Assembly: GCA_944349905.1 (NCBI GenBank)
Contig: CALVNR010000004.1
Span: forward strand, 55,199 to 119,198
From: an uncultured Clostridia bacterium
GTDB taxonomy: Bacteria; Bacillota; Clostridia; Christensenellales; UBA1242
DNA length: 64,000 nt
Direction of reading: 5' to 3'
Shown here: positions 19,279 through 63,730 of the stretch, in pieces
Numbering within the stretch: position 1 is the stretch's first letter
Layout: each line of letters begins with the position of its first letter
Translations under genes and position numbers: made by a program
The notes under the pieces: model-generated
The model's input: only the letters and a program-made list of their open reading frames with translations
Database searches by the model: none
Told to the model about the DNA's origin: nothing

Positions 19279-19307
19279 AAAAAAAGATGGCATTAGCCAT
19301 CAAAAAT
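19279..19307 (-). terminator. Terminator of rnpB
   Basis: The hairpin GATGGC-TAAT-GCCATC followed by seven T on the minus strand ends the RNase P RNA transcript. Confidence 0.88.
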
Positions 19308-19632
19308 CAGTTATGTTATAAGCCGAGTTCTGTATTTGACAATCATCTATCTAGTTTTGCAGTTGCCTGCAAAATCAAGCGGTTTGAAGAACGCGAGAGA
19401 ACAAGCGCTTTTTTGTTCTTCCCTTGCATCAGGTGGGGTTTACAGAGCACAAATTATCTCCAATTTGCCGGTAGTCTCTTACACTACCTTTCCACCCTTA
19501 CCAAAAATTTGGCGGTTTATTTCTGTTGCACTATCCTTAGGGTCGCCCCCACAGGTCGTTAACCTGCACCCAGTTCTCTTGATGCTCGGACTTTCCTCAT
19601 CATTATAATGATGCGATTGTCTGCATAACTGA
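19306..19632 (-). ncRNA. rnpB: RNase P RNA
   Basis: The catalytic RNA that removes tRNA 5' leaders is recognised on the minus strand by its 5' core GAGGAAAGTCCGAGC (about 19593-19607), by the GGTGCAGGTTAACGACC and GGGCGACCC segments that follow, and by a 3' end close to GAACTCGGCTTATAAC. The roughly 327-base span is normal. Its ends are estimated from the promoter and the terminator. Two plus-strand reading frames across it are spurious. Confidence 0.95.
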
Positions 19633-59344: not shown

Positions 59345-60091
59345 TTAAGATTGTGTGCTTTGACTTGAAGAATTGTCAATGGTGTTTGAAACTGTTGTCA
59401 AATTGAAACCATTATCTTTAAACCATGAAATAATTTTAGGAAGAGCCTCCAATGTCTTTTCTGTTGGATGCATTAAAATTAAATCTCCTCCTTGTGCATT
59501 TTTTATTGCCCTAGAATATATTAAGTCTGCATCTTTATCTCTCCAATCAACAGTATCACGAGTCCACATAATGGTTTTATAACCAAGTGATGAAGCACAA
59601 GAAACAGTGGTTTTGTCATAAACACCACTTGGTGGCGCAAACAAAGTCATTTCATAATTTAAAAGTTCTTTTATAATAGAATGTGTTGTAGAGATTTCAT
59701 TTAAGTTGCCCTGTTCATCAAGTTTGTCATGGTCTTTGTGATGATATCCATGATTTGCAATTTCATGTCCATCATTATATATTTTTTTAAGAATATCTTC
59801 ATTTAAAACTGCCCATGTCCCACCAATAAAGAATGTTGTTTGCACATCATTTTCTTTTAACACTTTAAGCATATCATCAAGGTATTCTGTTCCCCAGTAT
59901 ACATTAATCATAAGACTTACATTTTTGGTATTTTTATTACCATTGTAATAAACACCACTTACACTAGAAGAACTTGAAATAACGCTTCCACCCCAAAAAG
60001 CGAGAGTAGAAATAACCGCCAAAAGCAAAACAATAAAAGAATTAACTATCCATTTTCTAAACTTGAAAACTTTAAAATGTATTTTTTTCAT
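59345..60091 (-). CDS. Polysaccharide deacetylase-family protein (YlxY-like)
   Basis: The 248-residue protein has an N-terminal membrane anchor (residues 15-35) and a NodB domain: DVQTTFFIGGTWA, EIANHGYHHKDH (metal histidines), FAPPSGVYD and LILMHPT. The first catalytic motif, usually TFDDGP, reads MINVYWGTE, so the catalytic Asp is missing, as in YlxY/PdaB-type sporulation proteins. It lies upstream of ftsK, consistent with ylxY. Activity is doubtful; a cell-wall or sporulation role is inferred. Confidence 0.8.
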   Translation of the reverse strand: MKKIHFKVFKFRKWIVNSFIVLLLAVISTLAFWGGSVISSSSSVSGVYYNGNKNTKNVSLMINVYWGTEYLDDMLKVLKENDVQTTFFIGGTWAVLNEDILKKIYNDGHEIANHGYHHKDHDKLDEQGNLNEISTTHSIIKELLNYEMTLFAPPSGVYDKTTVSCASSLGYKTIMWTRDTVDWRDKDADLIYSRAIKNAQGGDLILMHPTEKTLEALPKIISWFKDNGFNLTTVSNTIDNSSSQSTQS

Positions 60092-60174: not shown

Positions 60175-60732
60175 TTACATTTCACTTTCTTCAATTTTTT
60201 CTTGATAATAGTTTAAAACAAAAAGTTTTTCCCAATTTGTAAGTTGTGAAAAGTTTTGTTCAATTTTGTTTGATAAAGCCAAATTCAAATATCTTTTTTT
60301 ATAATTTTTCTCGCTTTGTTTATCACCAACAATATAGTCAAAAAGACCTTTTACTGTTTCTTCAACTTTTTTTGAAAATTTACCATTTCCTATAATTGCA
60401 TCAATAACGATTTCATTATCTAAAATTCCATTTTCAATATCTTGTTCACTGTAAAGTCCTGCATATCTTACAAAATAATATCTATATAACTGCCCTTTTT
60501 CTTTTGAGGATAAAATTTTTAAAATTAGATCTTTTGCAATTTTAAATTTTTCACTCTCTTCAAACATATGCAAAATTTCATGTTTGTTTGTTTTTTCCAA
60601 ATCGTTTGGATAAAATTCATTTAAAAAAATTGTGCCATTTTCATAATATCCAAGAATATCATTTGGTAAGCCAAAAAAAACAGTTTTTATTCCTAATTTT
60701 TTATTGTTTTCAATAATCTGTTTTTTTGTCAT
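60175..60732 (-). CDS. Zincin-like protein with HEILH motif
   Basis: The 185-residue cytoplasmic protein has TNKHEILHMFEESE around residue 50, a HExxH zinc-protease motif followed by acidic residues. The preceding strand (GTIFLNEF, from an ENGTIFLN context) is like that of ImmA/IrrE-type and other minigluzincin peptidases. The remainder is helical. It overlaps the upstream 54-codon gene by four bases (ATGA), forming a pair. No helix-turn-helix repressor partner is seen. Substrate unknown. Confidence 0.6.
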   Translation of the reverse strand: MTKKQIIENNKKLGIKTVFFGLPNDILGYYENGTIFLNEFYPNDLEKTNKHEILHMFEESEKFKIAKDLILKILSSKEKGQLYRYYFVRYAGLYSEQDIENGILDNEIVIDAIIGNGKFSKKVEETVKGLFDYIVGDKQSEKNYKKRYLNLALSNKIEQNFSQLTNWEKLFVLNYYQEKIEESEM

Positions 60733-60893
60733 TTTTTATCCTCTTCTTTCAATTTCTTTTGTATTTCTTCTAACGAAAAACCATCTTTTTGCCAATTTTT
60801 TATTTTTTTTTGGTTTGCTTGAAATTTTGACAAGTCTTCTTCTTTGATACGCACAATATTTCCATCAAAAGACTTAACAGAAAAAAATTTCAT
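60729..60893 (-). CDS. 54-residue protein coupled to the zincin-like gene
   Basis: A GGAGTG site and a near-consensus promoter (60912-60940) precede the ATG. The peptide begins MKFFSVKSFDGNIVRIKEED and ends in a short helical region with the pattern WQKDGFSLEEIQKKLKEE. It is charged, has no membrane helix and could be a regulator, antitoxin-like or inhibitor partner of the protease. I do not recognise a family. The stop overlaps the next start by four bases. Confidence 0.65.
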   Translation of the reverse strand: MKFFSVKSFDGNIVRIKEEDLSKFQANQKKIKNWQKDGFSLEEIQKKLKEEDKK

Positions 60894-60911
60894 GTTACAC
60901 TCCTTATCTTA

Positions 60912-60940
60912 ATTTTATATAAATTCAAAGATAAAGTCAA
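60912..60940 (-). promoter_or_regulatory. Promoter of the 54-codon/zincin pair
   Basis: TTGACT (60935-60940) and TAAAAT (60912-60917) are 17 bases apart. Confidence 0.72.
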
Positions 60941-60953
60941 TACTAAAAATATA

Positions 60954-60984
60954 AAAATAAAACATATAAAAAATATATGTTTTT
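60954..60984 (-). terminator. Terminator after the mTERF-like gene
   Basis: AAAACATATA and TATATGTTTT pair around a five-base loop on the minus strand and are followed by a T-rich run. Confidence 0.7.
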
Positions 60985-60985
60985 A

Positions 60986-61939
60986 TCAAGCAATAAAATT
61001 ATTTTCTCTATTTGTTTCAATTTTATTATTTATTTTGTCAAATTCCTTATTTATAAATTCAATATCTTCATTTTTAAATGGATACAATTTTAGCAATTCT
61101 TCTTTACTAATTTTAAACTTATTTTCAAATCTTCCATTTTGTTTTATCAATATTTTATAATTTAAAAATTCTGGATAATTTTTTTTCAAAAATTGATATT
61201 TCGCCCAGTCCAAATCAAAAGATTGAACAAACCAATTAGATTTAACAAAGTCGAATCCCCTGTTTACAATTGCAAATAACTTAAATTTATTTTCAAGTTT
61301 TTCAAGAGGAGCAGAAAAAATTATAAAATTAAGTTTTATAAATTCATCATCTACCCCTAATTTATTCAACAAAGCTTTTTTCTTTAACACAGAATTTTTG
61401 TCCAATGTCAAAACTAGATATGAATTTTTTATCAACTTAGTTATCTCTTTATTATCAACTTTAAATGAGTTTTTCAACGATTCAATTTTTTCCAAGATAT
61501 TTTCTTTTTTAAAGCACAAAATATTTGGATATTTTGTTATCATTTTAATAAAATCAAACGCTGATAAGTTTAATAAATCTTTATAAAATGATTTTTTATT
61601 ATCAATTTCTTTTACATCATAACCTAACAAAGCTGGTGCATTTATAATTACATGTTTAATTTCTTGATTTGATAATTTAAAAGTATTTTGAATAAATTTA
61701 ATTGAATTTAAAATGTGTTGTTCACTATAAGTAAAAATTGCTGGTGAACGCTTAAACATTTTGCCATAATCTTTTTTGTCAACATTTAACAAATTTTCAA
61801 AAAATTTTACTTTATTTAAAATGGTTTCAGAATTTAACTCTAAAATTGTAGGATATTTTAAACATGCTTTTTTAAATGTTTTATCATCTAATCCTGAAAA
61901 ATCTAAATAATATTTAATTCTTTTTTCAATCTCTTTCAT
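60986..61939 (-). CDS. mTERF-like helical repeat protein
   Basis: The start is MKEIEKRIKYY, after GGAG; the longer reading frame would run into the promoter. The 317-residue protein contains six helical repeats whose conserved Pro-x-hydrophobic-hydrophobic anchors fall at residues 30 (PTIL), 66 (PAIF), 102 (PALL), 138 (PNIL), 174 (YLVL, Pro lost) and 211 (PLEKL), a spacing of 36, 36, 36, 36 and 37. Each anchor is followed by a pattern like hydrophobic-x-hxxLxxKIxFxxxxF. This is the arrangement of mTERF factors, nucleic-acid-binding proteins of mitochondria and chloroplasts, rarely described in bacteria. It has its own promoter and lies just downstream of the 16S rRNA gene. Confidence 0.7.
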   Translation of the reverse strand: MKEIEKRIKYYLDFSGLDDKTFKKACLKYPTILELNSETILNKVKFFENLLNVDKKDYGKMFKRSPAIFTYSEQHILNSIKFIQNTFKLSNQEIKHVIINAPALLGYDVKEIDNKKSFYKDLLNLSAFDFIKMITKYPNILCFKKENILEKIESLKNSFKVDNKEITKLIKNSYLVLTLDKNSVLKKKALLNKLGVDDEFIKLNFIIFSAPLEKLENKFKLFAIVNRGFDFVKSNWFVQSFDLDWAKYQFLKKNYPEFLNYKILIKQNGRFENKFKISKEELLKLYPFKNEDIEFINKEFDKINNKIETNRENNFIA

Positions 61940-61956
61940 TTTATTACTCCAAAAAA

Positions 61957-61985
61957 AATATATCACAATTGGGTTTATCTGTCAA
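61957..61985 (-). promoter_or_regulatory. Sigma-A promoter of the mTERF-like gene
   Basis: TTGACA (61980-61985) and TATATT (61957-61962) are 17 bases apart; the leader before the ATG is only about 11 bases and includes GGAG. Confidence 0.78.
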
Positions 61986-62042: not shown

Positions 62043-62080
62043 CAAAAAAAAATCTATGCTTAGTTGCATAGACTTTTTTT
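62043..62080 (-). terminator. Terminator downstream of the 16S rRNA gene
   Basis: TCTATGC-AACTAA-GCATAGA is followed by a run of T on the minus strand. It lies about 110 bases after the 16S 3' end and before the next promoter. Confidence 0.85.

Positions 62081-62192: not shown

Positions 62193-63730
<1,538 letters not shown>

Follow-up and report, generated by a model that had tools for sequence, protein, structure and literature searches.

The 64,000-nucleotide stretch of DNA analyzed here (the window) carries a bacterial gene of the mTERF superfamily, whose product is probably a sequence-specific double-stranded DNA (dsDNA)-binding regulator or roadblock of the pTERF kind, a reading to which we assign a probability of roughly two in three. 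The protein is a short, solitary solenoid of six predicted mTERF motifs and a helical C-terminal region, which would wrap along the major groove of a specific dsDNA site. Its prolines would line the groove, and sequence choice would fall to residues at offsets of -2, +1, +4 and perhaps +5 from them; the chromosome-bound protein would act as a local transcription regulator or roadblock. The readings weighed below overlap, and their probabilities need not sum to one.

The gene runs from an ATG at 61939 to a stop codon at 60986-60988, and its 317-residue frame on the minus strand is as the sequence-only reading had placed it (60986-61939). The mechanical ORF instead starts at GTG 61966, giving a 326-aa form on which the pI of ~9.4 was computed; the ATG is the start preceded by GGAG. 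A promoter of its own had also been proposed and called strong. The site exists, matching 11 of 12 consensus positions, but 27 promoter-like sites came out of the same scan where shuffles gave 15.9 +/- 4.2, and "strong" therefore reduces to a consensus match. The gene had been described as lying downstream of the 16S terminator, and a terminator-like hairpin (62080-62045) does separate it from the 16S gene (Table 1). The downstream 54-aa ORF shares 4 nt with the gene of the 185-aa HEILH protein, and the two perhaps make up a small two-gene unit. Elsewhere in the window, an RNase P class A RNA lies at 19303-19632 on the minus strand.

Table 1. Features at and around the mTERF-family gene (window positions).
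Feature	Position	Strand	Basis
mTERF-family protein (pTERF/mTERF type), 317 aa	60986..61939	-	PF02536, AF2, Foldseek
Six mTERF motifs, residues 1-209	61313..61939	-	model helices, motif check, periodicity
C-terminal helical region, residues 210-317	60989..61312	-	alignments with relatives, model helices
Ribosome-binding site GGAG before ATG 61939	61947..61950	-	read from sequence
Sigma-70-like promoter match, TTGACA-N17-TATATT, 11/12, TG before second hexamer	61957..61985	-	consensus scan only
Terminator-like hairpin, between 16S and mTERF gene	62045..62080	-	sequence scan
54-aa ORF, downstream of mTERF gene	60729..60893	-	no family above cut-off
185-aa protein with HEILH motif (motif by eye)	60175..60732	-	no family above cut-off
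Polysaccharide deacetylase, conserved flank of 16S locus in relatives	59345..60091	-	
16S rRNA gene, only copy found in assembly	62194..63729	-	RF00177 1505.7 bits

The assembly, G000, comprises 1.03 Mb in 12 contigs and is 98% complete; one copy of the mTERF gene was found in it. The gene sits on a 119-kb bacterial contig that terminates at the right edge of the window and also holds rimO, an ftsK-like gene, the deacetylase and the 16S gene. These neighbors, the length of the contig and the completeness of the bacterial assembly rule out a contaminating eukaryotic contig, which is also countered by the presence of kin in many genomes. The gene is not a nuclear gene with an organelle-targeted product, a trait that belongs to the eukaryotic members known so far and does not define the fold family.

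Membership of the mTERF family, proposed from the sequence alone, is now strongly supported by profile, sequence and fold matches. Pfam PF02536 (mTERF) matches at 83.8 bits (E 1.3e-23; curated cut-off 23.1), and the only other Pfam match listed is a chance one at E 2.5. Searched against the PDB by sequence, the protein matches human MTERF3 (1.3e-7), the Tetrahymena mitoribosomal protein mS93 (7.5e-5) and MTERF1 (2e-4), and with a 17-row profile these values become 9.9e-20, 1.5e-17 and 7.1e-18, respectively. The AlphaFold2 model (mean pLDDT 91.3, pTM 0.81) is built of three-helix repeats, each with one long, one intermediate and one short helix, and is predicted to form a triple-helix solenoid with a superhelix like that of MTERF1 and MTERF3. 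When this model was compared with PDB structures by Foldseek, a check that the sequence-only reading had put forward, ranks 1-9 were all human MTERF3 and MTERF1, with MTERF3 first (E 2.6e-7) and DNA-bound MTERF1 at TM 0.62. The mS93 chain follows at rank 10 and chains from MTERF4 entries at ranks 11-16. Once mTERF, mitoribosomal and designed chains are set aside, the highest-ranked natural protein is a TALE (4osw, E 0.56). None of TPR, HEAT, TALE or ankyrin gives the best profile or fold match in Pfam or in Foldseek against the PDB. The outcomes named beforehand as fatal to the assignment, a model other than a helical-repeat solenoid or a profile match to TPR or HEAT, did not appear.

The 36-residue repeat is genuine. 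Over residues 1-215 the BLOSUM62 self-score reaches +0.63 at lag 36, a value equalled by none of 1000 shuffles when lags 28-41 were scanned. In the AlphaFold model the short third helices begin at residues 30, 66, 102, 138, 174 and 205, and the anchor residues at these points are Pro in the first four, Tyr at 174 and Phe at 205. The sequence-only reading had placed its six anchors at 30, 66, 102, 138, 174 and 211; the first five stand, but Pro211 (in P-L-E-K) is misplaced, since the short third helix of motif 6 begins at Phe205 and the final step is therefore 31 residues rather than 37. The rule of hydrophobic residues at P+3, P+10 and P+17, as quoted for mTERF motifs in PMC11417379, holds at five of the six anchors tested, the failing one being the misplaced 211. 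In motif numbering this rule reads Pro-8 with hydrophobics at 11, 18 and 25; the hydrophobics fit at 30, 66, 102, 138 and 174, the last with Tyr in place of Pro. The repeats have diverged and are not homogenized, with a mean identity of 0.26 over four motifs. The C-terminal region aligns with a segment of its relatives that reads ...RYM...W..TSEKKTWAR...F..KYGI...L..KYP....

A 2021 review calls mTERFs eukaryotic (PMC7909791), and the sequence-only reading likewise considered them mainly so. That view has been overtaken, as Hu et al. described bacterial "pTERF" proteins in 2024, listing 46 homologs (5, 14 and 27; PMC11417379); bacterial mTERFs were thus already known, and the window protein is a further, divergent one. 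According to the same source, pTERF1, from a Clostridia MAG, binds the dsDNA ACTNNNAGTC with a Kd of 1.87 nM, and pTERF2 specifically binds another dsDNA motif. The specific dsDNA binding reported for these two relatives counts in favor of a DNA-binding regulator, and we infer DNA binding and a regulatory role for the window protein with this precedent in view.

Occurrence was counted as PF02536 matches at E <= 1e-3 in overlapping samples, each of which includes the window's own genome. Genomes with a match number 22 of 101 in the genus sample (16 scoring above the cut-off), 47 of 247 in the family sample (42 above it; 16 of 42 genera), 6 of 297 in the order sample (5 over), 10 of 391 in the class sample (6 over, the strong ones in two other families) and 6 of 398 in the phylum sample (2 over, one being the window's own). 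None of 14 control genomes yielded a match by the same profile and threshold. Across the window's phylum and these controls, the gene is therefore patchy but concentrated in one family. Searching named genomes with a peptide pattern gave ten loci, seven titled "uncultured Clostridia bacterium" and the others "Firmicutes bacterium", "Christensenella sp." and "Spirochaetaceae". In the last case (locus L065) the gene lies on a 3.6-kb contig binned as Spirochaetaceae, with the same mTERF match profile as the Clostridia locus L066, and may reflect a binning error or transfer.

From 60 regions around matches, searched with a bacterial profile, we obtained 60 main mTERF genes of 200 aa or more, counting that of the window. 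The duplicates L062 and L065 were left out, as were G003, G031, G033, G034 and G057, weak Pfam rows in frames of 800-900 aa; the bacterial profile did not confirm G003, G033 and G034, and G031 and G057 were not fetched. The weakest main gene, L050, scores 25.9 bits and the next weakest 70.9. A family tree was built from the C-terminal parts of 58 rows, without the two duplicates and without L132 and L136, which are cut by contig ends. The window protein has no supported placement in this tree and sits on a long branch (1.66). Six pairs of mTERF genes gave dN/dS values of 0.21-0.50.

The commonest repeated setting of the main genes is near cluster c2, whose member at L036 is lepA. This setting recurs at 16 loci in six genera, and six of these loci are also near cluster c13, whose member at L037 is rsmD. 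The lepA-linked members without a partner gene (see below) have dN/dS of 0.30-0.35. We read the recurrence near lepA in six genera as a sign of long residence of the mTERF fold in these bacteria, but the copies do not form one clade in the family tree, so the lepA spot may also have been filled repeatedly. Such proximity to translation and rRNA genes would also fit a protein that acts mainly on RNA, through stability, processing, translation or ribosome assembly, in the manner of MTERF3, MTERF4 and plant mTERFs. MTERF3 is the best match of the window protein by both sequence and fold, MTERF4 and mitoribosomal chains are among the matches, and the action of these other mTERFs on RNA or ribosomes counts against the dsDNA-regulator reading. 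However, gene neighborhood is weak evidence, the two bacterial relatives assayed by others bind dsDNA specifically (PMC11417379), and the positions that change between near-identical repeats match DNA-reading positions of MTERF1. We judge a mainly RNA-directed function to be unlikely, if far from negligible.

The mTERF gene starts ~255 bp past the 3' end of the 16S gene on the same strand, and from this position the sequence-only reading had guessed at a role in rRNA transcription or ribosome assembly. The protein might then serve its neighbor, either by terminating or insulating rrs transcription or by aiding 30S assembly. The assembly gave one 16S match and one 23S match on different contigs, the 23S at G000:C3:74157-77092 (L153), and no tRNA or 16S was found in the 12 kb around the 23S, so the two rRNA genes look unlinked. 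Mammalian mTERF has, moreover, been proposed to act immediately downstream of mitochondrial rDNA (PMC2955023). Against this, homologs were not seen to stay near rrs. In the stretches searched, no 16S gene adjoins any of the other 59 main mTERF genes. Flanks of 3 kb or more are present on either side in 40 of these, and the remaining 19 allow no full judgement; at L130 a 16S 5' end lies ~9 kb from the mTERF gene. As a linkage marker in MAGs the 16S gene was set aside as weak, since no more than 6 of the 41 genomes searched contained one.

The locus itself was then compared among relatives through its other flank, the deacetylase, which is matched in 100 of 101 genomes and marks a conserved locus. 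We fetched 20 relatives with this flank from the 99 with a match, mostly the closest; in these the deacetylase lies near a contig end. No mTERF gene was found in the assembled part of the 16S-deacetylase gap in any of the 20. The 16S 3' end is visible in four (L163, L169, L170 and L173), 196 to 3859 bp from the deacetylase, and L157 matches the window's terminator region; the other 15 stop before the 16S or terminator mark, so the gap may be incomplete there. The gap instead holds an ankyrin protein in L157 (983-2242), DUF4116 proteins in L158 (427-1635) and L173 (1454-1957), or 196 bp only in L163. The 16S-deacetylase gap is thus a variable slot (window 60175-61939), of which the mTERF gene is one occupant among species. 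Because the position beside 16S was not seen repeated in relatives, and with a terminator-like hairpin already present, the proposed rRNA role is not supported and we regard it as very improbable. The 16S gene is a neighbor that we do not count as part of the mTERF system, and its placement looks accidental.

The ankyrin and DUF4116 repeat proteins in the same slot of relatives, together with the small genome (1.03 Mb), could instead point to a repeat effector of eukaryotic type whose target would lie in a host cell or host organelles and not in the DNA of the bacterium itself. No signal peptide is seen by eye in the sequence, and many relatives occur in tight pairs with a small gene, which makes an effector barely plausible.

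This small gene encodes a three-motif protein, here termed mini-mTERF, and follows 27 of the 60 main mTERF genes on the same strand, at spacings from a 98-nt overlap to a 44-nt gap. By mechanical starts the mini-mTERFs are 92-132 aa long. The weakest of the 27 scores 29 bits (L149) and the others at least 69; two more of ~35 bits, lying at a greater distance downstream in L112 and L113, which are distant relatives, were left out of the count. Among 14 aligned mini-mTERFs, E87 is common to all, P27, P50, N61 and P62 occur in at least 90%, and in most the end resembles "PFxI". Their profile alone finds MTERF1 first in the PDB (E 5.7e-9), and an AlphaFold model (pLDDT 95.4) shows helices in the mTERF pattern. 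The best 17 Foldseek matches are chains of mTERF entries or mS93, the short length of the protein limiting their E values to 0.08-2.1. Of seven partners measured, six are acidic (pI 4.0-4.6) and one (pI 8.9) is taken to bear a spurious N-terminal extension; among eight big mTERF proteins measured, seven are basic. In three pairs of partner genes dN/dS is 0.15-0.72.

No mini-mTERF was found in the window's genome by a search run without a positive control, and the 54-aa ORF downstream of the window gene is not one. The window gene could therefore be an accessory relic of a two-gene mTERF system, a drifting copy whose partner was lost. It is short, its repeats are divergent and its branch is long and unplaced, as such a relic might be. 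However, the copy retains an open frame, a ribosome-binding site, a promoter match and a fold predicted with high confidence, and 33 of the 60 genes have no partner within 300 nt, including the lepA-linked members under constraint noted above. We consider a decaying relic improbable, and a functioning solitary DNA-binding protein the better account.

Several further observations concern the surroundings of the mTERF/mini-mTERF pair. At L040, L041, L122 and L126, proteins of clusters c21 (one member is Cys_rich_CPCC, PF14206) and c72 occur near the pair, and at L122 and L126 a protein of cluster c68, HNH-like by eye, occurs there too. The arrangement resembles that of cargo islands. The mTERF genes of L040 and L041 are 95% identical and share the same 66 bp upstream; beyond ~80 bp upstream no ungapped likeness remains and the neighbors are not the same, a pattern that would fit transfer of promoter and gene pair together as one cassette.

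Some relatives contain near-identical repeat arrays, namely L124 (8 units at 82%), L120 (7 at 81%), L123 (9 at 79%) and L033 (10 at 61%). These four arrays and L044, treated as five independent cases, were used to ask which of the 36 repeat positions change fastest, excluding arrays of mean repeat identity below 0.45. With the motif proline as 0, the fastest nonsynonymous positions are +5, +1, +4 and -2, at 1.63, 1.35, 1.14 and 1.09 times the overall synonymous rate, respectively. In MTERF1 the prolines line the groove, and R162, R202, R251, R350 and R387 read bases (PMC4705650). Mapped through the PDB sequence alignment (index = residue number minus 72), with W383 standing for proline as in PMC4705650, these arginines fall at -2, +1, +9, +1 and +4. 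As a check on the mapping, the numbering reproduces the five Arg as well as P277, Y288, F322 and W383, and residue 243 is Ala, as expected in the mutant chain.

For the set {-2, +1, +4, +9} the exact P is 0.012 with five arrays, 0.013 with seven and 0.009-0.020 leaving one out, although it treats positions as exchangeable when buried ones cannot vary and so overstates the case. It weakens to 0.024 once Y288 (+11) is added. R251 (+9) and Y288 (+11) fall on slow positions, the fastest position (+5) is absent from the listed MTERF1 contacts, there is variation at -10, -7 and -1 too, and the ranks taken by -2, +1 and +4 within individual arrays span 1 to 29. Whole arrays have pN/pS of 0.34-0.59, with no overall sign of positive selection, and 3 of the 25 differences between L041 and L040 fall at +1 or +4. 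That three of the four fastest positions (-2, +1 and +4) are base-reading positions of MTERF1 hints at a TALE-like readout; the candidate positions are a lead, not a code. In the window protein the residues at -2/+1/+4/+5 are K/T/E/L, R/A/T/Y and N/A/G/Y in motifs 1-3, and K/N/C/F and N/L/T/L in motifs 4-5. As this protein lacks homogenized repeats, any reading rule for it is carried over from its relatives.

More broadly, small-genome Clostridia might possess a home-grown, TALE-like form of mTERF DNA reading at -2, +1, +4 and +5, diversified there by repeat duplication and accompanied by the mini-mTERF as partner or restrainer. We offer this tentatively, as a possibility that we would sooner doubt than assert; within it, the window protein would be a solitary offshoot.

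An origin from phages or plasmids was considered and rejected. Viral contigs searched with the relatives' alignment gave 77 pattern matches, none of them confirmed, and no relatives were found in plasmids searched with the window protein or in phages searched with one relative's protein. Counting against this rejection, the repeat-rich L123 matches a PHROGs family of unknown function at E 1.1e-9 over ~20 residues; the window protein gives E 0.045. Membership of a known defense system was likewise discarded: in PADLOC the window protein reaches E 0.056, and a Cas2b match of L123 (2.1e-4), in which no stretch passes alone, is taken as chance.

Within its family, the gene of the window is a modest and divergent example. 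mTERFs matter for organelle gene expression, and if the long bacterial residence of the fold is true, the picture of mTERFs as a eukaryotic invention would need revision. A wider bacterial reservoir with near-identical repeats would make two questions testable, how repeats choose sequence and where the fold originated. If the reading positions hold, bacterial mTERFs could provide a compact programmable DNA-binding scaffold beside TALE. The portions of the open-access literature searched, supplements excluded, make no mention of the mini-mTERF partner, of agreement with the base-reading positions of MTERF1, of copies linked to lepA or of the variable 16S slot. In that literature from 2023 on, no other paper is on the subject of "pTERF" by title besides PMC11417379, whose main text by word search, and section 53, mention neither a partner nor gene neighborhood. 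The partner and the agreement between fast positions and MTERF1 reading positions thus seem unreported.

Among known systems, the closest in kind are pTERF1 and pTERF2, described as mTERF-like helical tandem repeats from bacterial MAGs, mostly Bacillota (PMC11417379). The window protein is likewise a bacterium-encoded mTERF-like repeat protein, its six motifs fall within the 3-11 tandem units given there although they have diverged, and by description the predicted three-helix repeat is common to both. pTERF1 is described in the same source as lacking the Pro-8 and heptad features, whereas the window protein has heptad hydrophobics in five motifs and Pro in four, and may therefore belong to another subfamily. 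Its own relatives reach 10 units with a strict period, in contrast to its diverged six. Human MTERF1 (3mva) shares the fold (TM 0.62), the motif layout, the groove-lining proline and the candidate reading positions; the window protein differs in being bacterial and shorter, with other residues at those positions. Human MTERF3 (3m66) is its best sequence and Foldseek match, at 16% identity in the structural alignment, and is a human mitochondrial protein where the window protein is bacterial. TALE and PPR proteins are alike in outline to the bacterial relatives, with homogenized repeats that differ at few positions. Their fold and repeat are different, with the weak match to 4osw the only one to a TALE.
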